DNA from: a virus
DNA length: 22,273 nucleotides
Virus record (IMG/VR): IMGVR_UViG_3300025548_000002
Coordinates: 1-22,273 of that record
Reading direction: 5' to 3' (one strand)
The notes beneath the pieces were generated by a model. It saw only the letters and a program-made list of their open reading frames with translations. It was not told where the DNA came from and ran no database searches. Positions 8,535-20,302 of the stretch are shown here, in pieces; the stretch's first letter is position 1; every line of letters starts with the position of its first letter. The translations under genes and the position numbers were made by a program.

Positions 8535-8572
8535 CGGGATGGGGTGGGGAATCTCATCCTATCCCGTTTTTT
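8535..8572 (+). terminator. intrinsic terminator after the capsid gene
   Basis: CGGGATGGGGTG (8535-8546) pairs with CATCCTATCCCG (8555-8566), a 12-pair stem with two G-T pairs and an 8-base loop, followed directly by TTTTTT (8567-8572). It lies 27 bases after the capsid stop and 4 bases before the next ATG. It is the only textbook terminator in the window and should set capsid mRNA above that of downstream genes. Confidence 0.88.
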
Positions 8573-8576
8573 GTAT

Positions 8577-8909
8577 ATGTCAACATTTCCATTACAAGAT
8601 ACAATCATCAACGATTTGAAAATGATTGCCGCAGATTTGGGCGATCAAACTTTTGAGTGGGAAGGAGAGAGCTATACTTGTATAGCATCAAGCAGAGGCG
8701 ACATTGCTACTCTTGAAGTCGGTGGATTTTCGATAGATGCGGATTTGAGTATTTCGGTGCTTAAAGAATTATTTGCTGACGGGATTTATCCGAGGTCACA
8801 AAAGAAAATTACTTATAAGAGTCGAGTATATAGAATCCAGACAGTTAGACAAGATACGACTGATGCGTTTATAAGATTGATTTGTGTCGATGATTCGAGA
8901 GGTATTTAA
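8577..8909 (+). CDS. head-tail connector / head closure protein
   Basis: A 110-aa protein located just after the capsid gene. An N-terminal helix (DTIINDLKMIAADLG) is followed by a beta-rich domain: FEWEGESYTCIASSRGDIA, a helix (SISVLKELFADG), and strands around YKSRVYRIQTVRQDTTDAFI and RLICVD. This pattern is common to the small head-completion proteins of siphoviruses that cap the portal after packaging, such as lambda gpFII-like proteins. I chose ATG 8577, which comes after the terminator T-run; an in-frame start at 8544 would lie inside the terminator stem. There is no SD (TTTGTATATG). Confidence 0.65.
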   Translation: MSTFPLQDTIINDLKMIAADLGDQTFEWEGESYTCIASSRGDIATLEVGGFSIDADLSISVLKELFADGIYPRSQKKITYKSRVYRIQTVRQDTTDAFIRLICVDDSRGI

Positions 8910-8911
8910 GT

Positions 8912-9718
8912 ATGGTAACTAAACAACAATTGCTTGATGATGGAAGTGTTTGGACCACGGATAATAAGTGGTTCAGAAAATGTCCATCGTGTGGTAATGT
9001 TATTGAGCATACCAATTATTTTAATGTCCGAAGATTACATTTGGAGAAATGTATATGCAGTAAATGTGCGGGTAAAAAACGATCAATACGTCAAATGGGA
9101 ATACGACCAAAAATGTCTCGTAAAGGATGTATAAACTCAGAAGAGAGTAAAAGAAAAGTATCGTTGGCATTAAAAGGTATAATTCGTGGACCTTTATCAG
9201 ATGAACATAGAGCGAAACTTTCATTGGTTCATACAGGATTATCAAACGGTCCTCATTCTGAAATTACTAAAAAGAAAATAGGAATGTCTAATAAAGGTAA
9301 TATACCGTGGAGTAAAGGAAAGAAAATGGGTCCGTTATCCGAGGATGTAAAACGACAACTTCGATGTGCTATGCTCAAGAAGTTTTTGGAAACGGGAATG
9401 GCAACCTGTATTGATGTGGGAGCCAACCAATGGTTCAATAAATATAATAGAGAACATAATGCGAATTTTGTTCCAACACCATTCCCAAATACATTGGGTT
9501 ATGATGCGGATGGATATGATGACCGTTTACATGCGTGGATAGAATACGATACAAAATATCATACACTTCCACACCAAGCGAAAAAGGACTTGATTCGTCA
9601 AAATAATATCATTAGGTATTTTGAGGATAAAGGCGAACCACTTACAGAATTTAAGAGAGTGTTGGCATATAATAATGAAGAAGTAAAAACTGTATATAGG
9701 GGGTACGAATATGCCTAA
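8912..9718 (+). CDS. homing-endonuclease-like protein 1 (zinc finger, NUMOD3-like repeats, Vsr/EDxHD-like nuclease)
   Basis: A 268-aa probable mobile-gene nuclease. It has an N-terminal zinc finger (C24-x2-C27; C47, C49, C52), then about four NUMOD3-like DNA-binding repeats between residues 75 and 150 (SKRKVSLALKG, HRAKLSLVHTG, TKKKIGMSNKG followed by IPWSKGKK). The C-terminal nuclease domain has D200-G-Y-D203, E211-Y-D213-x-K-x-H217 and K225-D226-LIRQ. The same core occurs in the proteins at 11225-11806 and 13293-13925. The EYD...H...KD arrangement suggests the Vsr-like EDxHD group of homing endonucleases, though a PD-(D/E)XK reading is also possible. It is free-standing between two connector genes and overlaps the next gene by 8 bases. 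Its last codons carry that gene's ribosome binding site. Confidence 0.85.
   Translation: MVTKQQLLDDGSVWTTDNKWFRKCPSCGNVIEHTNYFNVRRLHLEKCICSKCAGKKRSIRQMGIRPKMSRKGCINSEESKRKVSLALKGIIRGPLSDEHRAKLSLVHTGLSNGPHSEITKKKIGMSNKGNIPWSKGKKMGPLSEDVKRQLRCAMLKKFLETGMATCIDVGANQWFNKYNREHNANFVPTPFPNTLGYDADGYDDRLHAWIEYDTKYHTLPHQAKKDLIRQNNIIRYFEDKGEPLTEFKRVLAYNNEEVKTVYRGYEYA
9698..9703 (+). promoter_or_regulatory. Shine-Dalgarno site for gene 9711 inside the nuclease gene
   Basis: AGGGGG lies 7 bases before ATG 9711, within the codons for the last residues of nuclease 1. Most genes in this window lack any SD, so this one stands out and supports the start at 9711. Confidence 0.6.
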
Positions 9719-10346
9719 TGGTCTTACTATAAACGTCTCGACTGTCGAATTTGATCGTGTGTTTTCGGAATATATGAATTATACCAGTCGTGATTTAGTA
9801 GAGGCCGTAAATCAACACGCTTATTACATTGCCAGAAATTGCGTAGCCAATACAAAAGCGGTTCCGAAAGTGCAGATTGCTACTGAATTGGGAATGATGT
9901 CAAGAGATTATCCTCCCGCCCCATTGGGAGCGATTTTGGCTCAAGAACGTCGTGCTAAAAATGGATTGACAGGTCTATATGGACCTAAAATGGCAATGGA
10001 ATATAACCGGTTTGTGCGGTTCAGACAAAAGTCGCGGAATTTCATCAAGGCGGGATGGATACCAGCCATAAAATTATTGGAAAGAGTAGTTCCAAAAAAG
10101 AATGGAAAATCAATAGCAGGGATTAAGAAGTATGGTGTTGATAAGGGCGGGGCAAGACCTGCAATTCCGAGTCTGACCAATTGGAGTCCGATGGCAAGTA
10201 TTTGGAACTCAATAAGTGAATTGAGTGGTAAGGGATTTAAAATAATGGAAGCTGCCGCAATACAAAGTGTGGCGGACGAAACACAGTCAATGCGTGACTA
10301 CATCGAAAAAAAACTTGTAGAACGTGGAAAAAAACTCGGGGGATAA
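9711..10346 (+). CDS. neck / tail-completion protein (HK97 gp10-like)
   Basis: A 211-aa basic protein in the neck-gene position. Helical stretches (DLVEAVNQHAYYIARNCVAN near residue 30; SRNFIKAGWIPAIKLLERVV near 105) and a C-terminal helix (MRDYIEKKLVERGKKL) resemble the HK97 gp10 / minor tail protein Z type, which joins the head connector to the tail terminator. The phrase FIKAGWIPA is especially reminiscent of that family. It is longer than the usual 130-190 aa. It starts 8 bases before the upstream nuclease gene ends, so it is likely translationally coupled to it. Confidence 0.6.
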   Translation: MPNGLTINVSTVEFDRVFSEYMNYTSRDLVEAVNQHAYYIARNCVANTKAVPKVQIATELGMMSRDYPPAPLGAILAQERRAKNGLTGLYGPKMAMEYNRFVRFRQKSRNFIKAGWIPAIKLLERVVPKKNGKSIAGIKKYGVDKGGARPAIPSLTNWSPMASIWNSISELSGKGFKIMEAAAIQSVADETQSMRDYIEKKLVERGKKLGG

Positions 10347-10373
10347 ATTCCTCGATAACAGAATAGAAAATAT

Positions 10374-10784
10374 ATGAATTCAATATCAGTAAACACATCG
10401 GTTACGACTCAAGTTGATGATGCTCGAAACACATTATCAACCAATACTCTTACTAATGTATCAAGCAGCAACTATGTGGCATCGTCAACCACTCTAACTG
10501 GTTCCTCATGGACCAGTATAAGTGTGGGGTCATGCGCTGACGTTTCTCTTTTGACCATAATCAATAATGATAATGTCTATTCACAAAGTTTGATAGCAAT
10601 ATCAGGCAGTGCGAATGGATACCCAATGGGAGGTATGATTTATCCTGGGTTTCAATATACAACTAACTGGTCGGGGTCGATTACTTTAGCTGGGAGAGTA
10701 ATCGGAAGTTATGCTCCCGCTGTATCTGGAACATTTGTTCAGCAAGGACTGGGAGTGATCGAGGTTATCGCCCAACAGTCATAA
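10374..10784 (+). CDS. small Ser/Thr/Gly-rich beta structural protein
   Basis: This 136-aa protein is very low in charge and rich in Ser, Thr, Asn and Gly (SSSNYVASSTTLTGSSWTSI), with alternating hydrophobic strands and a C-terminal IEVIAQQS. It looks like an all-beta virion protein, for example a capsid decoration or small fibre domain, rather than an enzyme. It lies between the neck protein and the tail-terminator candidate, which is not the usual place for a decoration protein. No family is recognised. The start is SD-less (AAATATATG), and the next gene starts at TAATATG. Confidence 0.6.
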   Translation: MNSISVNTSVTTQVDDARNTLSTNTLTNVSSSNYVASSTTLTGSSWTSISVGSCADVSLLTIINNDNVYSQSLIAISGSANGYPMGGMIYPGFQYTTNWSGSITLAGRVIGSYAPAVSGTFVQQGLGVIEVIAQQS

Positions 10785-10785
10785 T

Positions 10786-11223
10786 ATGTCATTACCAATC
10801 CTAAGAACAACTGAACTGGCGTGTGCCGCTTTGGCATACAGTGCCTCGGTTACGTCTGGGTTGGGGTTGACGATTGATAAAGGTATCTATGCTGGGATCA
10901 GTAATGTGGATAAAGAGGCCCCCGCAATTATCTGCTTCTGCGATAATGCGACTGAGGACTTCCCGTTTTCGGGAATTAGTCATTGTAAAACACACGTATT
11001 GGTTAAACAAATAGCATACGATACTTCCACAACATCGAGTTTGTCCGATACAATCTTTAATGCATTTTGCTCGGGCAGTAATGGAGTATATGCGAAAGAC
11101 ATTCTCAATCGTTATCCTGGGTTCTTTTGCTATGAATATTTCATAGAAGGAACCAGCGATAGTATGTCGGGTGACGCATGGGTACAAGAATATGTGTTTG
11201 ATATTATATCAACACTAACTTAA
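10786..11223 (+). CDS. tail terminator candidate
   Basis: A 145-aa protein immediately upstream (apart from an inserted nuclease gene) of the tail-tube genes, where the tail terminator (lambda gpU-like) is expected. It has an alpha/beta composition: strands around APAIICFCDNATEDF and HVLVKQIAYDT, a helix (SLSDTIFNAFCSG), and a C-terminal strand (AWVQEYVFDIISTLT) of the type seen in terminator proteins. It contains six cysteines, more than is normal for this class. No diagnostic motif is visible, so the call rests on order, size and fold impression. Confidence 0.45.
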   Translation: MSLPILRTTELACAALAYSASVTSGLGLTIDKGIYAGISNVDKEAPAIICFCDNATEDFPFSGISHCKTHVLVKQIAYDTSTTSSLSDTIFNAFCSGSNGVYAKDILNRYPGFFCYEYFIEGTSDSMSGDAWVQEYVFDIISTLT

Positions 11224-11224
11224 T

Positions 11225-11806
11225 ATGAATAGAACTTGCCCACAATGCAATAGGTCTATCTCTTATAGGAACATAGTATCTTTTGAGCGGGCAATACGTC
11301 ATAATGGAATGTGCCATTTGTGTTCAATGCAAGGTAGGCAGGGACAGGGATTAGGTAGAAAGGTATCTTTGGAAACAAGACGGAATGTATCACAATCACA
11401 TAAGGGACAAATTCCTTGGAATAAAGACAAAGAGTGCCCTTCTATTGTAGAGGCAATGCATCGGCCCGACGTGCGTAAAAAACATATTACGGGGCTTCAC
11501 CATTCTAAATGGTTGAAAGTTAGAACTGATAAAGGTCAATTAGAAATGATTGCCTGCTGGAATAAGATGGGATTTAAGTTTGAGCCAAATTATCAGGTTC
11601 ATACCGATACGGATTTGTTCTATATTGACGGGTATGATAAAGAACATGGCGTAGTGTTGGAATATGATTCCAAATACCACAATAAAGGTCATCAACAACA
11701 AAAAGATTTAATTAGGCAGCAGAAGATTATAGACATTCTCAAGCCTAAGAAATTTTGGCGGTATAACGCTGTCAAAAAACAATGTAAGAATGTCTTAGGA
11801 GGATAA
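11225..11806 (+). CDS. homing-endonuclease-like protein 2 (zinc finger, Vsr/EDxHD-like nuclease)
   Basis: This 193-aa protein is the shortest of the three related nucleases. It has an N-terminal zinc finger C5-x2-C8 ... C30-x2-C33, one degenerate NUMOD3-like repeat (residues 48-66, ending GQIPWNK), and a nuclease domain with D135-G-Y-D138, E146-Y-D148-S-K-Y-H152 and K160-D161-LIRQ. Much of the repeat region present in protein 1 is missing, so target recognition probably differs. It lies between the tail-terminator candidate and the first tail-tube gene and starts one base after the upstream stop (TAATATG). Its last three codons, Leu-Gly-Gly, encode the AGGAGG ribosome binding site of the tail-tube gene. 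Confidence 0.84.
   Translation: MNRTCPQCNRSISYRNIVSFERAIRHNGMCHLCSMQGRQGQGLGRKVSLETRRNVSQSHKGQIPWNKDKECPSIVEAMHRPDVRKKHITGLHHSKWLKVRTDKGQLEMIACWNKMGFKFEPNYQVHTDTDLFYIDGYDKEHGVVLEYDSKYHNKGHQQQKDLIRQQKIIDILKPKKFWRYNAVKKQCKNVLGG
11797..11802 (+). promoter_or_regulatory. strong Shine-Dalgarno site for the first tail-tube gene
   Basis: AGGAGG lies 8 bases before ATG 11811, inside the last codons of nuclease 2 (stop TAA at 11804-11806). It is among the best SD sites in the window and fits a highly expressed tube protein. Confidence 0.8.
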
Positions 11807-11810
11807 AGCG

Positions 11811-12209
11811 ATGGCAGACAGAAATAAATACCACGGAATCGCAGTGAACTTCGGTGTTAACTCAGCAATCGGCAGTGTAGTCGGTGTCTTTCAAACAAGA
11901 GACCACGCACTTGAATCTGATAATGAAATCATTCGAAATGGAACTGGCGATGAAGTCGAGAAGACTTTCTACGGAACGGGTCGTGAAACTTGTACGTCCG
12001 AATATGTGGCCACTCAAACGGGTGCTGCATCTGGAACGGCAACTGTAACATACCCAACTATTGGAGATGCATTCACCGTCACGGACACTACCTACAGCCA
12101 AATCGCTGGAACCTCGTGGCTATGCGATGGAGTGGACATCAAGGGGAGCAATACCACGGCAGTTCGAGTCACCGTCAAAGCAACCAGATACGCCTTGATT
12201 ACCTCTTAA
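11811..12209 (+). CDS. tail tube-like protein A
   Basis: A 132-aa Thr/Gly/Ala-rich, beta-type protein. It is a clear paralog of the next gene: both share HG-x-(A/S)-(V/I)-x-FG, G-x-FQ-(T/S)-R-(D/E)-H, YVA-x-Q, (T/V)P-x-IG, and SNTTAVRV-(T/S)-VK followed by RY-x-L. Together with placement just before the tail chaperone and tape measure, this suggests the tail tube protein that stacks to form the tail. The length is at the small end for tube proteins. A strong AGGAGG fits high expression. Alternative: a tail-associated structural protein of another type. Confidence 0.6.
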   Translation: MADRNKYHGIAVNFGVNSAIGSVVGVFQTRDHALESDNEIIRNGTGDEVEKTFYGTGRETCTSEYVATQTGAASGTATVTYPTIGDAFTVTDTTYSQIAGTSWLCDGVDIKGSNTTAVRVTVKATRYALITS

Positions 12210-12232
12210 TCGTTGACAGTATTTGGCCAACC

Positions 12233-12240
12233 AAAGGAGG
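12233..12240 (+). promoter_or_regulatory. extended Shine-Dalgarno site for tail tube-like gene B
   Basis: AAAGGAGG (extending to T12241) gives a near-complete anti-SD match, with only 3 bases to ATG 12244. It decides the start: the in-frame TTG at 12223 lies upstream of the SD and is unlikely. Confidence 0.7.
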
Positions 12241-12243
12241 TAT

Positions 12244-12669
12244 ATGCCCAAAGTACATGGCGTAAGTATATCATTCGGCATAGGCACCACAATTTGGGGT
12301 GTCAATGGGATGTTTCAATCTCGTGAGCACCACTATATTGCTAATTCCGAAGAAATAACTGATGGGGGAGATACTACCATCAGTAAAATCTATTGGAATT
12401 ATAGAGAAGAAGCCTCGTTCGTATATGTAGCGTACCAGCCAGCGCATAATTATTATGATGCTGCCGTACAAGTTCCCCAGATCGGTTCATTTGTATCTGT
12501 CAGTGATTCTATCTATCCTGCCGTTTCCAGTGATGGCGGATACAACTATGCCATTAATTCAGCCCGTGGACAGTGGTTAGTAGATGATGTATCAGTATCT
12601 AATAGTAATACAACCGCAGTACGGGTAAGCGTTAAACTCAGCAGATACCCACTTATGCAAACTATATGA
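12244..12669 (+). CDS. tail tube-like protein B (paralog of A)
   Basis: This 141-aa tandem paralog of the preceding protein keeps the same N-terminal (VHGVSISFG, VNGMFQSREH) and C-terminal (SNTTAVRVSVKLSRYPL) blocks. It differs mainly by a loop insertion before the last block (SSDGGYNYAINSARGQW). Two adjacent copies suggest that one is the main tube subunit and the other a specialised ring (initiator, terminator-adjacent or decoration), or that the tube is built from both. The start is fixed by the strong SD, and the stop overlaps the next start as ATGA. Confidence 0.62.
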   Translation: MPKVHGVSISFGIGTTIWGVNGMFQSREHHYIANSEEITDGGDTTISKIYWNYREEASFVYVAYQPAHNYYDAAVQVPQIGSFVSVSDSIYPAVSSDGGYNYAINSARGQWLVDDVSVSNSNTTAVRVSVKLSRYPLMQTI

Positions 12670-13289
12670 GCAAACAGCTTGACCAATTCGTCCAATCATC
12701 AATCCCCGAACCATATACGATTCTCGGTTGCAAATTGCATAGTCTGTCGGTTGGCCATCTTATCTTGATGAAGAGATTTGAGTGTGCGTTTGGCCCCGAT
12801 GATGTTAATAGAGAAGGAACCGTTTGGGACTTACTTGTGGGAGTAGCCATATGCTGCCGCAAGTACAATGAGTTTCTCGATTGGTATTCTAATATAGAAG
12901 AGCGGGATGGGTGGATAACCGAATGGTTAAAAGTTCTTACAAACGAAGCAAATAATAATCCCAATTGGAAACTGATGAACAAATTCTCCTTGTTCAACAT
13001 GTATCGTAAAGAAGGTATTTCAGTTCCGAAGTACTTCGACGAGGGAAACCATGATGACGACAGAGAATCAGGAGCACATTGGATTCAGAATATTTTCACG
13101 GTCCTTATGACAGAAATGAACTATTCGGAACCAGAGATACTTGATATGCCAGTGGCCAAAGCATTATCCCTTTATTTCAAGACCTTGGAGAACAAGGGAC
13201 TAATTACTTTGATGGCCGATTGGCAAATTGATGAGGATGAACGACTTGCTGCACAAGCCGAACCAGTAAAAGAAGTAAAAAAGGAATAA
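12666..13289 (+). CDS. tail assembly chaperone (lambda gpG-like)
   Basis: A 207-aa, mostly helical protein between tube and tape-measure genes, the position of chaperones such as lambda gpG that hold the tape measure before tube growth. It has an N-terminal strand/helix (YTILGCKLHSLSVGHLILMK), a central Trp-rich helical region and an acidic, then Lys/Glu-rich tail (EPVKEVKKE). The last codons contain a perfect in-frame slippery heptamer A AAA AAG at 13277-13283, as in G/GT frameshift pairs. A -1 shift there would add only five residues before a stop, because a nuclease gene occupies the downstream space. It starts by ATGA overlap with the tube gene. Confidence 0.62.
   Translation: MSKQLDQFVQSSIPEPYTILGCKLHSLSVGHLILMKRFECAFGPDDVNREGTVWDLLVGVAICCRKYNEFLDWYSNIEERDGWITEWLKVLTNEANNNPNWKLMNKFSLFNMYRKEGISVPKYFDEGNHDDDRESGAHWIQNIFTVLMTEMNYSEPEILDMPVAKALSLYFKTLENKGLITLMADWQIDEDERLAAQAEPVKEVKKE
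13277..13283 (+). promoter_or_regulatory. candidate -1 frameshift slippery site A AAA AAG
   Basis: The heptamer falls in the correct phase (gtA AAA AAG gaa taa) two codons before the chaperone stop. The -1 frame continues Gly-Ile-Thr-Asn-Gly and then stops, so any product would be only slightly longer. The following AAGGA also serves as a possible SD for ATG 13293. Confidence 0.4.
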
Positions 13290-13292
13290 CAA

Positions 13293-13925
13293 ATGGTTAA
13301 TCCAAACATATCTAATTCAGTGAAACGACTTTGGGAGAACCCCGAATATCGTGAACGCATGAGAAAGGCACACTTGGGTCAGAATGCTTGGAATAGGGGT
13401 ATTCCCATGTCAGATGAACAAAAGACGAAGATTTCAGTTACATTGACGGGAAGTGTTTCTCCGAACAAGGGAAAAAAGGCAGACCGAACTTTGAGAAACA
13501 AATTGTCTAATGCTCACAAAGGATACAAATGGGCGGCAGATAGTAAGCGTAAATTGCGCGAGTCTGTTGTCAATCGTCTCAAAGAACTAAAGATAGCTCC
13601 CCGAATAGACAGAGGAGCGACCGAATGTTTCGACCAGTTAAACAAAATGGGATACAACATTATTCATCCCAACATCCATATAGATACTATGGGATATTTT
13701 GTAGATGGATATGACTCTATTCGTCATATCATATTTGAGTTTGATACTCCAACACATCTTGCCCCACGGTATGCCGATAAGGATATGATACGCCAACGGA
13801 ACATCATAGGTTATTTCAATTCAATTGGAAAGCCTCTCAACGGGTTCATTCGTATAAATGATACTGGTGTAGGAGAAGAAGGTATGACCAATGTAATGAA
13901 TGGAGGCTCTTATGGCAAGTCCTAA
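13293..13925 (+). CDS. homing-endonuclease-like protein 3 (NUMOD3-like repeats, Vsr/EDxHD-like nuclease)
   Basis: This 210-aa protein lacks the N-terminal zinc finger of its two relatives and begins directly with NUMOD3-like repeats (residues 10-80: WENPEYRERMRKAHLG, EQKTKISVTLTG then SPNKGKK, LRNKLSNAHKG). The nuclease core reads D138-G-Y-D141, E149-F-D151-T-P-T-H155 and K163-D164-MIRQ. The Lys found after the Asp in the other two is Pro here. This argues that E, D, H and D rather than a (D/E)XK lysine are the essential positions. It sits between the chaperone and the tape measure. Its 3' end overlaps the tape-measure gene by 14 bases and contains that gene's SD. Confidence 0.84.
   Translation: MVNPNISNSVKRLWENPEYRERMRKAHLGQNAWNRGIPMSDEQKTKISVTLTGSVSPNKGKKADRTLRNKLSNAHKGYKWAADSKRKLRESVVNRLKELKIAPRIDRGATECFDQLNKMGYNIIHPNIHIDTMGYFVDGYDSIRHIIFEFDTPTHLAPRYADKDMIRQRNIIGYFNSIGKPLNGFIRINDTGVGEEGMTNVMNGGSYGKS
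13902..13906 (+). promoter_or_regulatory. Shine-Dalgarno site for the tape-measure gene inside nuclease 3
   Basis: GGAGG lies 5 bases before ATG 13912, within the last codons of nuclease 3. It supports the start at 13912 over the in-frame ATG at 13900, which lies upstream of the SD. Confidence 0.7.
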
Positions 13926-15141
13926 AGTTCAAGTTTCCGTGGGTGCTGATGCCAAAGGATTCAATCGAGTCATGTCTGGTGTGGAAGACCGTTTGAAAGG
14001 TCTTGGAAAGGGAGGATTTGGGGGAGGTATTCTCGGGGCTATTAGTGGTGGGGGTATCAGTGGAGTCGGTGCTATGACTGGCATGGGAGCAGTCATCGGT
14101 GCGTCTGCCGCAGCTGGGGCAGCCATTCTTGCTTTTACTGTTAACACGGCTAAATTTGCCAAGGAGATGGAAGAAACGGCAGCAAGGTTGAATATCACTA
14201 CTACCCAAGCTCAGCAATTATCTTTTGCCGCTGAATTGATGGGTAAGGATTTGGCATTCTTGGAAACGATGATGCATAAGGTAGATATTTTTGCCGAGAA
14301 GGCACTTGTTCGTGGTTCTAAAGAAGCTGAAATTGCCGAGAAACTTGGTATTACAAGAGAACAATTGCAACATTTGGATGATGCTGAATTGATAAAACTT
14401 ATTGCTAAAAGGGCAGCCGAGAAAAAACTCGGAGTAGCCGATTTGGATGTCATCGGGGGGAAAAAAGGTGGACGGGAAATAAAGAAAGCTGGAGAATCTA
14501 TCGAGAAATCCGAAAAGTTCGGATTTACGATTGACGATAGGGCTATGGCGGCAATGAGAGATGAGTGGGAGAAATTCTTGGTTGTTCTTCATGATGGTCT
14601 TACTATTCTTCAAATGGCTGCGGCAGGATTTATTATATTGTTCCGTATGTTAAAAGTCATGTCTAATCCTATGACTTACATACAGTTAATGACTGGTCAT
14701 TGGAAAGACGTGGTAGAAGATTTGAAACATGCTACTGGACGCGGACTGGTGAAACCAGTTGATGAAACAAATAGAAAACTTCCCACCGAAAAACTTCCTG
14801 AACTTGGGCCTATGGGGGGGAACAATCAATTCCTAAAGATTGGTGGTTTAATGGGAATTGATACGAATTATCGTATTGAGCGACTTCTATCTATGATTGA
14901 ACAGAATACTCGTAAAGATCAAATTTCTACTCCCGCGACTCCACCATCAACAAGTCCATTTCCAATGAGCCAACCATTGGCACCATCACCAGCGAGAGTA
15001 GCGGGACCAAGTGGGTATGGAAAAGCAGGTTCGCCAGGAATGTCAAGTCAGAATGCTCCGGTATTTAATCCCGCAACCCCACATTCAACCCCCGTATCAC
15101 AACCGGCATCATCGGCATTAAAACGTAATTTGACACAATAA
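13912..15141 (+). CDS. tail tape measure protein (short)
   Basis: A 409-aa protein. It has an N-terminal basic/amphipathic segment, a Gly/Ala-rich hydrophobic stretch (residues 32-78), a typical tape-measure phrase MEETAARLNITTTQAQQLSF (near 85-104), then a helical, Lys/Glu/Ala-rich section (120-205). A second hydrophobic segment follows (about 222-250, LTILQMAAAGFIILF). The C-terminal 80 residues are Pro/Ser-rich and probably disordered. Tape-measure length sets tail length at roughly 0.15 nm per residue, so this would give a short tail of about 60 nm if it is the full ruler. The position after the chaperone supports the call. No peptidoglycan-hydrolase motif is visible. Confidence 0.75.
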   Translation: MASPKVQVSVGADAKGFNRVMSGVEDRLKGLGKGGFGGGILGAISGGGISGVGAMTGMGAVIGASAAAGAAILAFTVNTAKFAKEMEETAARLNITTTQAQQLSFAAELMGKDLAFLETMMHKVDIFAEKALVRGSKEAEIAEKLGITREQLQHLDDAELIKLIAKRAAEKKLGVADLDVIGGKKGGREIKKAGESIEKSEKFGFTIDDRAMAAMRDEWEKFLVVLHDGLTILQMAAAGFIILFRMLKVMSNPMTYIQLMTGHWKDVVEDLKHATGRGLVKPVDETNRKLPTEKLPELGPMGGNNQFLKIGGLMGIDTNYRIERLLSMIEQNTRKDQISTPATPPSTSPFPMSQPLAPSPARVAGPSGYGKAGSPGMSSQNAPVFNPATPHSTPVSQPASSALKRNLTQ

Positions 15142-15142
15142 T

Positions 15143-16111
15143 ATGAGTAATTTAGGACAAATAGGACCAGTTCCAAACAATACCACATTGCGTGGAATTA
15201 TTAGAAATGCACTTGTCACAGGCGTAACTACAAGTACCTGGAATCCACGTACAGGTGGAACAAGCAAATCCGTCTTCAAAGGTACTCAACAGCAAGTTAC
15301 CGACATGGCCAATGACTGTCAAACAGCGGGTTTTGAGTATTCAATTTCGGGGGGTCACATATGGACACTGGAAGTTACATTCCCCGTGGACATTATTATC
15401 AATGATATTGAGCATGAACCCGCTCCCATTGCTACTTGGGAACTTTCATATCAACCGTTTGAAAAGAATCTTCTTGAACTTAATGATAGAAAATTAATTC
15501 AGAATCTTAGTACTTTGACCAAGCAAAATATAGAAATGAAAATGAAACTTCCTGCGGAAAAACAAACACTCACGCCGTGGGGGGATGATGACATTGAACA
15601 TTGGGCGGAGGCAACTGTTGCCTATAATCTTAAAAGATCAGGAGTAGAGGGAAAACAAGGATGGGTTCATACGTTGAAGAAGACGATAGTTGTTAGTAAT
15701 AGCGCGGATACCACATCACTTCTTTTGCATCCAGAGTGGGATGGTAAAATATTTCTCAAAGATGATTTGGTTACTAAATATAGTACCGCAGAACCCAATC
15801 CTCTGAGTCGTATGCCAACAGTTATTAATACAAACATGCCAGTTCAAACCGATGCTACAAATTGGAATGGAACGACGGCATTACCTGTAATAGCCGAAGG
15901 ATATGTTATGGATAAAAATGGTATTGTATCCTATATTGGATGGCTACAATATCCTGCCGAATACCAAATGATTTCTTTGCTCAAATGCTCTATCAGTCAA
16001 CACTGGGTATTTAATAATTGGAGTGCAGGACCAAAATGGGGAGAATATGATCCAGCAGTTTCCGGTGCAGAACCAGACCCGTCAGTGTTTGGTGGTCCTC
16101 TATCAACATAA
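15143..16111 (+). CDS. distal tail / baseplate structural protein (unknown family)
   Basis: A 322-aa, mostly beta, soluble protein directly downstream of the tape measure, where distal-tail proteins are normally encoded. It begins MSNLGQIGPVPNNTTLRGII and contains a strand-rich N-terminal half (HIWTLEVTFPVDIIIND, TWELSYQPFEKN) and a C-terminal half ending in Trp/Gly/Pro-rich sequence (WVFNNWSAGPKWGEYDP). I do not recognise a family. The role as Dit-like or baseplate component is inferred from order only. It starts at TAATATG after the tape measure. Confidence 0.5.
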   Translation: MSNLGQIGPVPNNTTLRGIIRNALVTGVTTSTWNPRTGGTSKSVFKGTQQQVTDMANDCQTAGFEYSISGGHIWTLEVTFPVDIIINDIEHEPAPIATWELSYQPFEKNLLELNDRKLIQNLSTLTKQNIEMKMKLPAEKQTLTPWGDDDIEHWAEATVAYNLKRSGVEGKQGWVHTLKKTIVVSNSADTTSLLLHPEWDGKIFLKDDLVTKYSTAEPNPLSRMPTVINTNMPVQTDATNWNGTTALPVIAEGYVMDKNGIVSYIGWLQYPAEYQMISLLKCSISQHWVFNNWSAGPKWGEYDPAVSGAEPDPSVFGGPLST

Positions 16112-16124
16112 ACTACCGATTCAT

Positions 16125-16958
16125 ATGAGTGATTTAAGAGAAGTAGGAAGTTCAAATGACCCGTTTAGTTATTGGGCGAATTCGGTAACAGATGTTATTC
16201 GTGAAAAAGCTCTTTCTAAGAGCAGTGATATTTTGTTGCGTAATACCCACATGGGGTCTTCTATTTCTATCTCTCCACAATACAAATATCCACCCACGTT
16301 CATGAATTATTGCGGGAAATATGACCCCGTTCAATCATATGGGGTGAATGATGTTGTGAGAGTGTTACCTGACACGAACTATAACTTTGGAGAGAGGTTT
16401 ACAGATCAAGTAACCAGACAATATACTAATGCTTCTACAGCCGTTCCACCAAGAAAACCGTCACTAATTATTGGCGGAACCATATATCCTCAGAGTGCTT
16501 TTATTAGCGTTGGTATTTATGCCACCAATGACAATAACACAATTGCATATGGACTTAGATCGGATAATCCAGTTGTTGGAACCTGGATATGTGTATCACC
16601 AATCCCAAATGCATTTATATATGCGGAATTAGTCGCTCATATGGGTAACATTGAGTATTATACAGAAGCAACCAGCAATAGCAATTTCCTTACGCTCAAT
16701 CCATTCGAACAAAAAAACATTCAATATCTTAGATTGGCGAATGTAAATTATTCCCCCGATTGGCCCGAGTGGGGCAATGTTGCTGAATTGCAGAGGACGA
16801 ATTTGACCAAGACTCAAGGGAAATATTGGGAACTTTTATCTTTACTTCCAATGACTCAAAATTACTGTTCTAATGGAACTACCACGCCTGTACTTGTTGA
16901 CGCTAGTAATCTATCTTCGGGTAGTATGTATCCTGTTGATGAAACAAAGACATTTTAA
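16125..16958 (+). CDS. tail-associated structural protein (unknown family)
   Basis: This 277-aa protein has a beta-rich, Asn/Tyr/Pro-rich composition and no enzyme motif. The stretch YDPVQSYGVNDVVRV (residues 66-80) resembles the aromatic/Gly-Asp turn seen in small carbohydrate-binding modules (pattern W/Y-x3-Y-x2-G/N-D-x-V), which hints at surface-glycan contact but does not prove it. I chose ATG 16125, preceded by TTCATATG; an in-frame ATG at 16023 would overlap the previous gene by 89 bases. It probably forms part of the tail tip with the two neighbouring large genes. Confidence 0.5.
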   Translation: MSDLREVGSSNDPFSYWANSVTDVIREKALSKSSDILLRNTHMGSSISISPQYKYPPTFMNYCGKYDPVQSYGVNDVVRVLPDTNYNFGERFTDQVTRQYTNASTAVPPRKPSLIIGGTIYPQSAFISVGIYATNDNNTIAYGLRSDNPVVGTWICVSPIPNAFIYAELVAHMGNIEYYTEATSNSNFLTLNPFEQKNIQYLRLANVNYSPDWPEWGNVAELQRTNLTKTQGKYWELLSLLPMTQNYCSNGTTTPVLVDASNLSSGSMYPVDETKTF

Positions 16959-16960
16959 TT

Positions 16961-19900
16961 ATGAACATACGTCCTGCATGTGGCCAAACGGTTTATCATG
17001 ACCCGATTCCCGTGCTGGGAAGATGCGGCCAATCATTTTCTTTAATTGGGACAGAATCAAGCAGCATCAAGATAAAGCACAACGTCACTAAGATGTTGAA
17101 TTATGCAACTGGGTCTCCTTCCCCACCTACATGGATACCTGTATTTAAGATAGCTCAAGGCGGGGGACTTGAATCAAGTTGCTCTCCATATGCCTCAGAC
17201 CCGCCACAGAATTTCATTTGCGGTGATGGTGTCAATGGTTTTATATGGTGCCATATGGGTTTTAACTCGGCATCAATTCAGGCTTGCACTGGCACAGGTA
17301 GTTATACTTTCCCCGTAGGTAATTACTGGAATTGTTATTCTCAGAGTCAAGATACTGCTTCCAGTAATCCATGTAATACTGACAACAGAGCATTTGGATA
17401 TAAAAATCTATATTCAAATAAAACATGGTCTGGTAGAAAATCATATACCAGTCGTGACTGGCAAGCCCCAGATGGATTTGATTGTTGCGGGGATGGTTGC
17501 TGGTATCACGAAGCAGATTTGGGTTCTTCTGACCCGATAAAATACAGAACCATTAGTGCAACTTTTACTGAAAATTTTAATGAAACAAGTCCAGTATGCT
17601 CTTATTATACTCCCGAAGGTGCCGGTGAATTCTGTTGTATAGACGGATATACTCCTTGTGATTGCACGAGTGAAGGTTGCCCGCTCCCGGGGTCTCCAAT
17701 ATGGTGCCGGACATGTGAAGCAGGTTCAACGGTTGACCGTGGATGTGATGCTTCTGCTACAACTACCGTGGATATATATGGAGATGTTGTCGTTGCCAGT
17801 TGTGCTTCAAGTTCATATGGATATTATGATGATATAGCAATTGCAAATGAATCAGAACGAGCACTGGGACTGATTGAAAATGCTAATAGTAATATATCTA
17901 TTTTAGCCAATTCATTTACTATTGAATATTCAAAGTTCTATTTCATCATGGGAATACCCCAAGTGCTGACGAGTGATGGACCTGGTTCTTGGCACGCCGA
18001 ATGGCATATTACAGCCGAAATATGTCATGCTGGTTGTGGAGGCGTAACTTCAACAAGCGATATAACACTATATTCAATAACCGTAACTCCTAATTCATTT
18101 AGCGAAACAATAGAAAATGTCAATACAAATGGTGAGTCAAGTTGGTGTGTTGGTGATGAACAATGTGCATCGGTAACGTCTGGAACTTCCACACTTACCT
18201 TTTCGGAAACAACTTACGACAATATCAATGGTGCTGAATTTGAACCGTCATATAGTTTTGGAGGAACATATACTTCAGAATTACATGCAATTTTAGCAAA
18301 CCCGTATACGATTTCGGATGTTAAAAAAGACATGGTTGACATGATGGCATTGTGGGACTTAGGTGACGACCTACAATTACCGTGGAGACGTGATGCTATT
18401 ACCACACTTGGGCCAAAAATCTGTCACGATGAAGGTCTCGCAATTCCATCAGTTCCTCAATGTCAAACTACAAGTTTCTATACTGGTGTTATCAAAGGAG
18501 CACCAGCACCCATTGGAATAGATTATGTATGGGATTTTGACCATCCTAATTATTGTATTTGTGCATTCGTTACTGATACAGAGACATGTTATGCCCCATA
18601 TGTTTTGGACTGGGGGGCATCCTCTACTGACTGTGGAACACCGAGGGCGACAAATTGGCTCGATTATATGGAAGGAAATTCCATGCCCCAAGGTGCATTC
18701 CTTGGTTCAAGTTTTCTATGGACTCATCCTTCTACCTGTAATCTGGCAGGTCCAAGTCAGCCCCACGATGAGGTCCTATGGGCATGTAAATATGCTGAAG
18801 CAGTGTTTCCAAAACAATCATTTAATTATATCAGACCTTGTGGGGCTGACCGACTTGCTATAAGCGAATCAAGTACTCGTTGTATTTCAAGTACATCGGA
18901 TAATACTATCTTTATTGAACCGAGTGGTCCTCCTACTGACATACAAAGCACAAAAGTATTTGTTTGTGGCACTAGTACATTGGATGGTCTATGGGAAGCC
19001 AGTAGTGATTGGAATTATACTATCACGTTGACTGAACCAAGGTTGGCGAGCGCCTCATATTTTCCTACCACACCCATAAGTGATTGTGGTAGTGGAATGA
19101 TATACAAACTCCAATGGAAATCTGTGCCTGGCATTTGTGGAACATTGGATATTTTAGCTGTTAGCAATGAGAATCCAGTTACTTGCTCAATTTCCAGTGG
19201 TGGGTATCTTATTGATGGTGATGCCGTTCAGATTGTGGGTGTTAAAGGATTAACGTCAATCAACGGATTCCATAATATCCACGTCATAGGTCTTGATACG
19301 ATTACCATTGATGGTATTGATGGTACAACTCTATCTCCTTACGCTGGCGGAGGTACTATTCAGAATCAGTTCTCTCCCGATCAAGCTTGGAATGACACGA
19401 ATGGTAAAGGTGATTTCACATATAAAACATGGTTATACAACTATAGAGACCTTGGGGAGTATAATCGGGTTCTTGGAGAATACAATTGGAATATGGGATT
19501 GTCAGATTGCATAACATTTACTCCACCTTGCAGTCAATTACCTACACTTATTCCAGAACCACGACCATATCAGAATGCATGTGGACTTGACCCAAATGTT
19601 ATCAGTATGTCTTGTGTAACTTCTTGTATGCCATTCAATCCATGTGGAGCCAATGCTGCTTATTTCTCTCCAAATAAAGAATCATTTAACAGTTCGAGTC
19701 ATAACTGTGGATGGGCACCAAATACATTCGTCCCCCTTGACCAGGTATATCCGACCTACTGGGCTGGAATTATTACTCAACAGATGGACGATTTATACTA
19801 TCAGGCACCACCTTGTACTTGCATACCCAATACTGACCCAGATACAGAGATTACTACTTATGCGTGTGATTCCAATTGTTCATGGGCCGAAGACAATGGA

Positions 19901-20302
19901 ACGTGCCAGACAGATATTCCAGGTGATTCTGAATTGGGTATTCCATGTCATAAATACTTTGCTGCCCGAGATGTATTTGAGGCACGATGCGAAGTTCCAA
20001 CAGGTGCTCCACCATTGATAGGAGGGAAACATTTGGGTTGTCTTACGGTGGCGCAACTCAATACCCCAAATTGTCCAGAAGGAAATGTTTGCAATTCACC
20101 TGCGAATTCTTGGGGTATATTTCCATTAGCTGAATCCTGTGCCCCATTCGTTGCATATCAATATCATAATTATGGTACACCGTGGATTCCGTGGTTATCA
20201 AAGGAGGGATGCGTTTGTTCAGATTCCAGATTTGCAGAAACATATATTGCCAATGGGGTGGGTGTCTCTCCAACATGCGACATGGTTTTTCCTCCACCTT
20301 AA
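16961..20302 (+). CDS. giant cysteine-rich tail protein
   Basis: This 1113-aa protein has about 60 cysteines (about 5%), in clusters such as DCCGDGCW (near residue 174), FCCIDGYTPCDCTSEGC (near 225) and PPCTCIP (near 950). It has few charged residues and many Ser, Thr, Gly, Asn, Trp and Tyr. There is no N-terminal signal peptide (MNIRPACGQTVYHDPIPVLG). Around residues 745-800 there is a phage-type module with pattern I-x-GV-x-G...I-NG-F...D-T-I-T-I-x-G...Y-x-GGG-T-I, resembling the E1-FCCH-like beta module of tail proteins. It is probably a receptor-binding, baseplate or fibre protein. The cysteines would be free thiols, metal sites or disulfides formed after lysis; the sequence does not tell which. 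Confidence 0.6.
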   Translation: MNIRPACGQTVYHDPIPVLGRCGQSFSLIGTESSSIKIKHNVTKMLNYATGSPSPPTWIPVFKIAQGGGLESSCSPYASDPPQNFICGDGVNGFIWCHMGFNSASIQACTGTGSYTFPVGNYWNCYSQSQDTASSNPCNTDNRAFGYKNLYSNKTWSGRKSYTSRDWQAPDGFDCCGDGCWYHEADLGSSDPIKYRTISATFTENFNETSPVCSYYTPEGAGEFCCIDGYTPCDCTSEGCPLPGSPIWCRTCEAGSTVDRGCDASATTTVDIYGDVVVASCASSSYGYYDDIAIANESERALGLIENANSNISILANSFTIEYSKFYFIMGIPQVLTSDGPGSWHAEWHITAEICHAGCGGVTSTSDITLYSITVTPNSFSETIENVNTNGESSWCVGDEQCASVTSGTSTLTFSETTYDNINGAEFEPSYSFGGTYTSELHAILANPYTISDVKKDMVDMMALWDLGDDLQLPWRRDAITTLGPKICHDEGLAIPSVPQCQTTSFYTGVIKGAPAPIGIDYVWDFDHPNYCICAFVTDTETCYAPYVLDWGASSTDCGTPRATNWLDYMEGNSMPQGAFLGSSFLWTHPSTCNLAGPSQPHDEVLWACKYAEAVFPKQSFNYIRPCGADRLAISESSTRCISSTSDNTIFIEPSGPPTDIQSTKVFVCGTSTLDGLWEASSDWNYTITLTEPRLASASYFPTTPISDCGSGMIYKLQWKSVPGICGTLDILAVSNENPVTCSISSGGYLIDGDAVQIVGVKGLTSINGFHNIHVIGLDTITIDGIDGTTLSPYAGGGTIQNQFSPDQAWNDTNGKGDFTYKTWLYNYRDLGEYNRVLGEYNWNMGLSDCITFTPPCSQLPTLIPEPRPYQNACGLDPNVISMSCVTSCMPFNPCGANAAYFSPNKESFNSSSHNCGWAPNTFVPLDQVYPTYWAGIITQQMDDLYYQAPPCTCIPNTDPDTEITTYACDSNCSWAEDNGTCQTDIPGDSELGIPCHKYFAARDVFEARCEVPTGAPPLIGGKHLGCLTVAQLNTPNCPEGNVCNSPANSWGIFPLAESCAPFVAYQYHNYGTPWIPWLSKEGCVCSDSRFAETYIANGVGVSPTCDMVFPPP

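Follow-up and report, generated by a model that had tools for sequence, protein, structure and literature searches.

A 22,273-base fragment of an uncultured tailed-phage genome (IMG/VR record IMGVR_UViG_3300025548_000002, positions 1 to 22,273; hereafter, the window) encodes, in this order, a terminase of the GpA type, a portal protein, an S49 protease, a capsid protein, connector and tail proteins and a tape-measure protein, and the connector and tail part of this module is interrupted by three extra intact open reading frames (ORFs). We conclude that these three genes, HEG1 (8912-9718), HEG2 (11225-11806) and HEG3 (13293-13925), all on the plus strand, are very probably free-standing homing-endonuclease genes (HEGs) of the late structural operon, each encoding an N-terminal arm with a zinc finger and/or NUMOD3 repeats joined to a Vsr/PvuRts1I-like nuclease of the PD-(D/E)XK type, with cleavage, target sites and homing as predicted properties. 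The coordinates coincide exactly with those given in a first-pass annotation of this DNA, which was made from the nucleotide sequence without database searches.

Domain architecture and the predicted nuclease core

The three proteins share a C-terminal core and differ in their N-terminal arms. HEG1 (268 amino acids) contains a zinc finger (C24/C27/C49/C52), three NUMOD3 stretches (Pfam, E-value 3.3e-10) and a C-terminal Vsr-like nuclease with D200, E211, D213, H217 and D226, along with Q173 at a helix position that in family members is mostly glutamate. HEG2 (193 amino acids) contains a zinc finger (C5/C8/C30/C33), a single weak NUMOD3 stretch (E-value 0.0044, under the curated cut-off) and, from codon 77, a linker and the nuclease with E107, D135, E146, D148, H152 and D161. 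HEG3 (210 amino acids) lacks the zinc finger and consists of two NUMOD3 stretches (E-value 3.8e-7) and the nuclease with E111, D138, E149, D151, H155 and D164. The differences between the arms noted in the first-pass annotation are therefore real: the C-x2-C...C-x2-C zinc finger is confined to HEG1 and HEG2, and the NUMOD3 repeats number three, one and two. Single pairwise BLASTP comparisons yielded E-values of 3e-13 (HEG1 and HEG2), 1e-26 (HEG1 and HEG3) and 3e-15 (HEG2 and HEG3), which rule out chance similarity among the three ORFs and, together with the motif aligned across all three, confirm the shared core. This core reads D-G-Y-D (rather than D-x-GYD, as originally described), followed after seven residues by E-(Y/F)-D-x3-H and, after another seven, by KD-(L/M)-I-R-Q-x2-I-I, the latter two motifs being as first described. 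Pfam searches detected neither an HNH nor a GIY-YIG nuclease in the three proteins, and the weak matches to PHROG homing endonucleases stem from NUMOD3.

Among named phages, which were searched for close relatives, HEG2 has weak matches only (best E-value 0.01) and HEG1 is matched only inside its NUMOD3 part; HEG3 matches one uncultured phage (E-value 6e-15, 30.5% identity) and, weakly, Lak phages. One pattern scan of bacterial and archaeal genomes, covering 84,980 species, found no relative, and HEG1 as a single-protein query of viral contigs returned no match; a query with a tail gene added no further contigs. An alignment query of the IMG/VR viral contigs, in contrast, identified 77 loci with relatives, from which 99 distinct cores were obtained. 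Most members of this family lack annotation, and nearly all of those found here come from uncultured phages; of 83 members, 61 contain NUMOD3. In core numbering, D35, E46 and D61 are invariant across the 99 cores, H52 and R64 are each present in 98% and D48 in 94%, and the helix glutamate (core position 7) in 66%.

A profile of the core alone, compared with PDB sequences, has PvuRts1I as its best match (E-value 0.046), and in the hidden Markov model alignment D35, E46, D48 and H52 correspond to D57, E68, D70 and H74 of that enzyme. Mutants of PvuRts1I at these four positions lose activity, D70A only in part, and a change of the helix Glu20 (E20A) strongly lowers it; E68A was assayable in just one of two studies. 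In this enzyme an aspartate, in E-I-D, stands in for the (D/E)XK lysine (PMC4027163, PMC4157451). Because the E-(Y/F)-D slot of the family aligns with this E-I-D, an aspartate occupies the lysine position here as well, and the predicted active-site pattern is D..E-x-D-x3-H..D. The residue that ends the DTK, DSK or DTP triplet, which the first-pass annotation had considered as the (D/E)XK lysine, is not that lysine: it sits two residues beyond the aligned slot. Pfam searches with single members detected DUF559, MTES_1575 and PvuRts1I-like_N (E-values 0.0001-0.002), and phrog_559 matches 7 of 30 cores (best E-value 1.8e-4); the DUF559, MTES_1575 and phrog_559 matches agree with the PvuRts1I-like assignment of the active site.

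In the AlphaFold model of HEG2 (83 sequences, pLDDT confidence 89), a zinc-finger unit and arm helices precede a core composed of a helix (residues 103-114), three strands (120-126, 131-138 and 143-148), a second helix (155-172) and two further strands; D135 lies on strand 2 and E146 on strand 3, in the alpha-beta-beta-beta-alpha arrangement of PD-(D/E)XK nucleases. Superposition with VIA-align matched this model to Vsr (1cw0; Z 7.7, 89 residues, 2.6 A) and to the catalytic domain of I-Bth0305I (3r3p; Z 7.0, 79 residues, 3.3 A), middling values that show fold, not function; the HEG1 model (pLDDT 86) presents the same picture (Vsr, Z 6.8). The top match of HEG2, ahead of Vsr, is a Toxoplasma gondii mitoribosomal protein (Z 10.5), and the mitoribosome chains that rank above Vsr are taken to reflect a common fold rather than a common function. 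The closest named viral models in BFVD are DUF559 proteins, NUMOD3 proteins and phage homing endonucleases. The models thus support a PD-(D/E)XK/Vsr fold for the core, and the prediction of a Vsr-like nuclease that is neither HNH nor GIY-YIG is borne out by the models, the fold matches and the single-member Pfam matches.

Three points weigh against this identification. Unrelated proteins often reach Z scores of 7-8 in such comparisons; Foldseek alone found no PDB match with an E-value below 0.02; and in HEG1 the helix glutamate is replaced by glutamine (in GANQWF), so that this protein may be impaired, that is, weak or dead. HEG2 and HEG3 retain all the conserved residues, and for the HEG2 core the ratio of nonsynonymous to synonymous divergence (dN/dS) is 0.07 and 0.14 in the pairs where dS is unsaturated, which indicates purifying selection and argues for function. 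In a subgroup of cores (e.g., L051, L039, L015 and L041; L numbers denote the viral loci), there is an N-G-G-E insertion and the helix glutamate is often absent; a glutamate of the hairpin might replace it.

I-Bth0305I, the reference for the EDxHD group, is located in a group I intron of recA. The likeness to this group that was suggested in the first-pass annotation holds at the level of the Vsr-like fold, but the fold match does not single out this group. That the window proteins are strict members of the I-Bth0305I family, rather than of a separate Vsr/DUF559 branch, nevertheless appears a serious possibility, if not the probable one, and, being a matter of classification only, it is compatible with our interpretation of the genes as HEGs. 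The match to 3r3p, the same domain order (DNA-binding region first, Vsr-like nuclease at the C-terminus) and the conservation of E, D, H and D in the family all favor it; however, the Z score for 3r3p ties with that for Vsr and with other PD-(D/E)XK folds, and the nearest PDB sequence match is PvuRts1I. No match to I-Bth0305I was obtained at the sequence level, and the entry 3r3p is not among the matches in the profile searches of PDB sequences, a missing match that is no evidence against kinship. I-Bth0305I is intron-encoded whereas the window genes stand free between other genes: no Rfam match was obtained in the window, so that no intron was recognized there, and with the flanking genes complete on either side we rejected an intron or intein context. 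The catalytic domain of PvuRts1I and AbaSI shares with the window family the residue order D..E-x-D-x3-H and the aspartate in place of the (D/E)XK lysine, but in PvuRts1I the nuclease is N-terminal and is combined with an SRA domain for 5-hydroxymethylcytosine, whereas in the window family the nuclease is C-terminal, the arms consist of zinc fingers and NUMOD3 repeats, and an SRA domain was not found.

Occupied and empty sites in the structural module

Comparison with relatives that lack one or more of the genes revealed empty sites at all three junctions. HEG1 is located between g8544 (8544-8909) and g9711 (9711-10346, its ATG overlapping the end of HEG1), both on the plus strand like all the flanking genes described here; the gap measures 804 nucleotides in the window compared with -5 to 51 nucleotides in 34 distinct contigs, the exceptions being L005 and five other contigs, with gaps of 139-556 nucleotides. 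In L005, the g9711 homolog (L005:7537-8709) possesses an N-terminal extension of about 175 amino acids at the junction that HEG1 holds in the window. HEG2 separates a gene at 10786-11223, which is 81% identical at the amino acid level to its counterpart in L023, where the site is empty, from g11811 (11811-12209, 91% identical to L023). The gap of 590 nucleotides compares with 6-15 nucleotides in L023, L024 and L086, and in the DNA alignment with L023 the insertion takes the place of a short stop-to-start spacer. The HEG3 site, between g12666 (12666-13289) and the tape-measure protein (TMP) gene (13900-15141), whose start falls inside the end of HEG3, is closed in L005, L016 and L024.

The relatives carry family members elsewhere in the same module. 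L005, the nearest relative of the window at the terminase (74% amino acid identity) and the portal protein (65%), has none of HEG1-3 and encodes a fourth family member between the portal and S49 protease genes, which in the window overlap. In the tail part the nearest relative is L023 (72-91%), with five members, at the junctions S49/x, x/MCP (major capsid protein), g11811/g12223, g12223/g12666 and g12666/TMP, and L024, L016, L066 and L007 have one or two members each. Taken together, the members lie at about ten separate junctions, all within a single conserved module, and this erratic occupancy among relatives bears out the earlier proposal that mobile genes have spread through it.

An alternative is that the three genes, though of HEG descent, have ceased to home and work for the phage instead, for instance in regulation or in the exclusion of competing phages. 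The missing helix glutamate of HEG1, the purifying selection on the cores and the tight packing of the genes in the operon, with HEG2 and HEG3 supplying a GGAGG before the next gene, are in line with such domestication, and domesticated HEG parts have been discussed previously (PMC10448857). Nevertheless, occupancy that varies erratically between close relatives is typical of selfish elements, and HEG2 and HEG3 retain all the conserved acidic residues and the histidine, so that we consider this alternative improbable. As for the GGAGG itself, it lies within the final codons of both genes (window positions 11785-11813 and 13890-13912), directly ahead of the structural gene that follows, as if the insertion supplied that gene with a ribosome-binding site; in HEG2, the last codons contain GGAGGA just upstream of the ATG of g11811.

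The site of HEG1 coincides with a switch in ancestry. Upstream, the window resembles L005 (g8544 is 52% identical to the L005 protein and 28% to that of L023), whereas downstream it resembles L023 (g9711, 72% against 30% for L005; later genes up to 91%). At the DNA level, within this gene order, similarity to L005 stops at 8665 and similarity to L023 starts at 9768, bracketing HEG1. In the aligned blocks of 9768-16363 the window is 70-84% identical to L023 in nucleotide sequence, and the terminase and portal proteins are only about 31% identical; the feature by which HEG islands are recognized, namely HEGs that bracket essential genes alike in nucleotide sequence between otherwise dissimilar phages, is accordingly present. 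The location of HEGs at boundaries of genetic exchange has been described already (PMC10448857), and the switch at HEG1 appears to fit this pattern as one case. The capsid region shows further homology switches, and nothing similar to the capsid protein was detected in L005.

Other HEG classes occur in the same module: L016 encodes, immediately ahead of its portal gene, a nuclease of the GIY-YIG class that weakly matches NUMOD3 (L016:3091-3696), and L007 an Endonuclease VII-type HEG directly after the g9711 homolog (L007:2673-3134, Pfam E-value 4.5e-21). At 125-553, the window contains an ORF of Y-x3-H/N-K-type repeats that resemble the repeats at the N-terminus of Endo VII-type homing nucleases and weakly match the L007 gene (E-value 0.001); a catalytic domain is not detectable in this ORF, which is possibly an orphan DNA-binding array. 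In L066, an ORF on the minus strand between the terminase and portal genes (L066:2614-3753) has a C-terminal CxxC...CxxC pattern and, judged by eye, is TnpB-like. A cysteine-rich protein of 1113 amino acids encoded at the tail end of the window (16961-20302) matches the E1_FCCH domain (E-value 2.9e-8).

Different arms joined to related cores

The first-pass annotation suggested that one core had been re-targeted to three sites within this DNA. The three window cores are mutually distant (about 36% identical to the HEG2 core) and hence did not arise by recent copying of a single core; what does stand is the re-use of a core with different arms, which is apparent between HEG2 and genes of other phages. 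The cores of HEG2, L023a, L023d, L024b and L066 are 69-85% identical in amino acid sequence and occupy five different junctions, and the arms of this group, where delimitable, are only 25-35% identical. In two phages, HEGs at three further sites show BLASTN similarity to HEG2 that begins each time at position 11453, so that a block at 11453-11806 (plus strand), comprising the linker AMHRPDVRKKH and the nuclease core, appears portable; in all three HEG2 comparisons profiled, amino acid identity jumps at codon 76 from 13-20% to 73-80%.

The same contrast could result from fast divergence of the DNA-binding regions after duplication of whole genes, without any exchange. Between HEG2 and its core relatives the synonymous sites are near saturation (proportion of synonymous differences, pS, 0.60-0.75), so that for this group rapid divergence of the arms instead of exchange is possible; the residual similarity of the arms and the family-wide correlation between arm and core similarity (r 0.50) also fit this explanation. 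However, the sharpness of the switch at codon 76, the differences in zinc-finger and repeat content and the reverse pattern seen in HEG3 speak against it, and we regard it as rather unlikely. The first 110 nucleotides of HEG3 (13293-13402, plus strand) are identical to L023:10087-10196, the start of L023e, which occupies the same junction. Nucleotide identity between the two genes is 91-100% over codons 1-45 and 44-71% over codons 61-195, with 78-81% in the adjoining parts of the flanking genes, and the synonymous difference is 0.16 for codons 1-50, 0.64 for the flanking gene and 0.81 for codons 61-206. An identical 5' start combined with a divergent remainder points to exchange within the gene, and an arm start that is conserved next to a divergent core needs recombination inside it.

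We further propose, tentatively and as a possibility rather than a probability, that this unnamed Vsr/PvuRts1I-like family is a natural interchangeable-arm system, in which a portable linker-nuclease block, fused always at the same position to varying zinc-finger/NUMOD3 arms, has been repeatedly re-aimed at new gene junctions of the one structural module, with cutting that would drive mosaic exchange of head and tail halves among phages. The cycle that belongs to our main interpretation of the genes as HEGs is as follows: the arm would locate a gene-junction site in a co-infecting phage without the gene, and the core would cut that site with the help of metal ions; repair from the occupied genome would then copy the gene and its flanking markers across, and over time the joining of the core to different arms would open new junctions. 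That the proteins cut, where they do so, that the genes home and that re-targeting proceeds by exchange of arms are all predictions of this model. Apart from the near-saturation of synonymous sites, it is weakened by the sequence comparisons at individual sites: linkage of arm to site is clear only for g12666/TMP, the one junction to support such a link when we tested for it over the whole module. Three other junctions are common to two phages; there, the two genes have cores from separate clades (core rank 67-86 of 105), and the arms are not notably alike. Family-wide, we found no whole-arm case that combines high arm similarity with low core similarity.

Relation to known homing systems

HEG islands and the exchange of DNA-binding and nuclease parts are already known, having been described in the literature for homing genes of the T5orf172 and HNH types. 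The islands of the T5orf172 and IPA-HNH type (Barth et al. 2023, PMC10448857) resemble the system described here in the bracketing of essential structural genes, the unstable HEG content and the exchange of DNA-binding and nuclease parts, but they involve another nuclease class, whereas here a single Vsr-like family is spread over about ten sites within one module. The phrog_559 Vsr-type nucleases from terL introns of Bastillevirinae (PMC11878797) belong to the same Vsr class of phage homing nucleases and, unlike the window genes, are intron-encoded. The DNA-binding region of I-TevI (PDB 1i3j) shares the combination of a zinc finger and a NUMOD3 segment and is matched by the family profile (E-value 0.011); its nuclease, however, is of the GIY-YIG type and N-terminal, in contrast to the C-terminal Vsr-like nuclease here.

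What is new is the different, Vsr-like nuclease class, the portable block of linker plus core, and a rich set of natural test pairs. Related cores that carry different arms at known junctions, together with relatives in which the same sites are empty, provide such pairs for the study of target acquisition by homing nucleases, and the same pairs bear on whether homing nucleases place the breakpoints of phage mosaicism.

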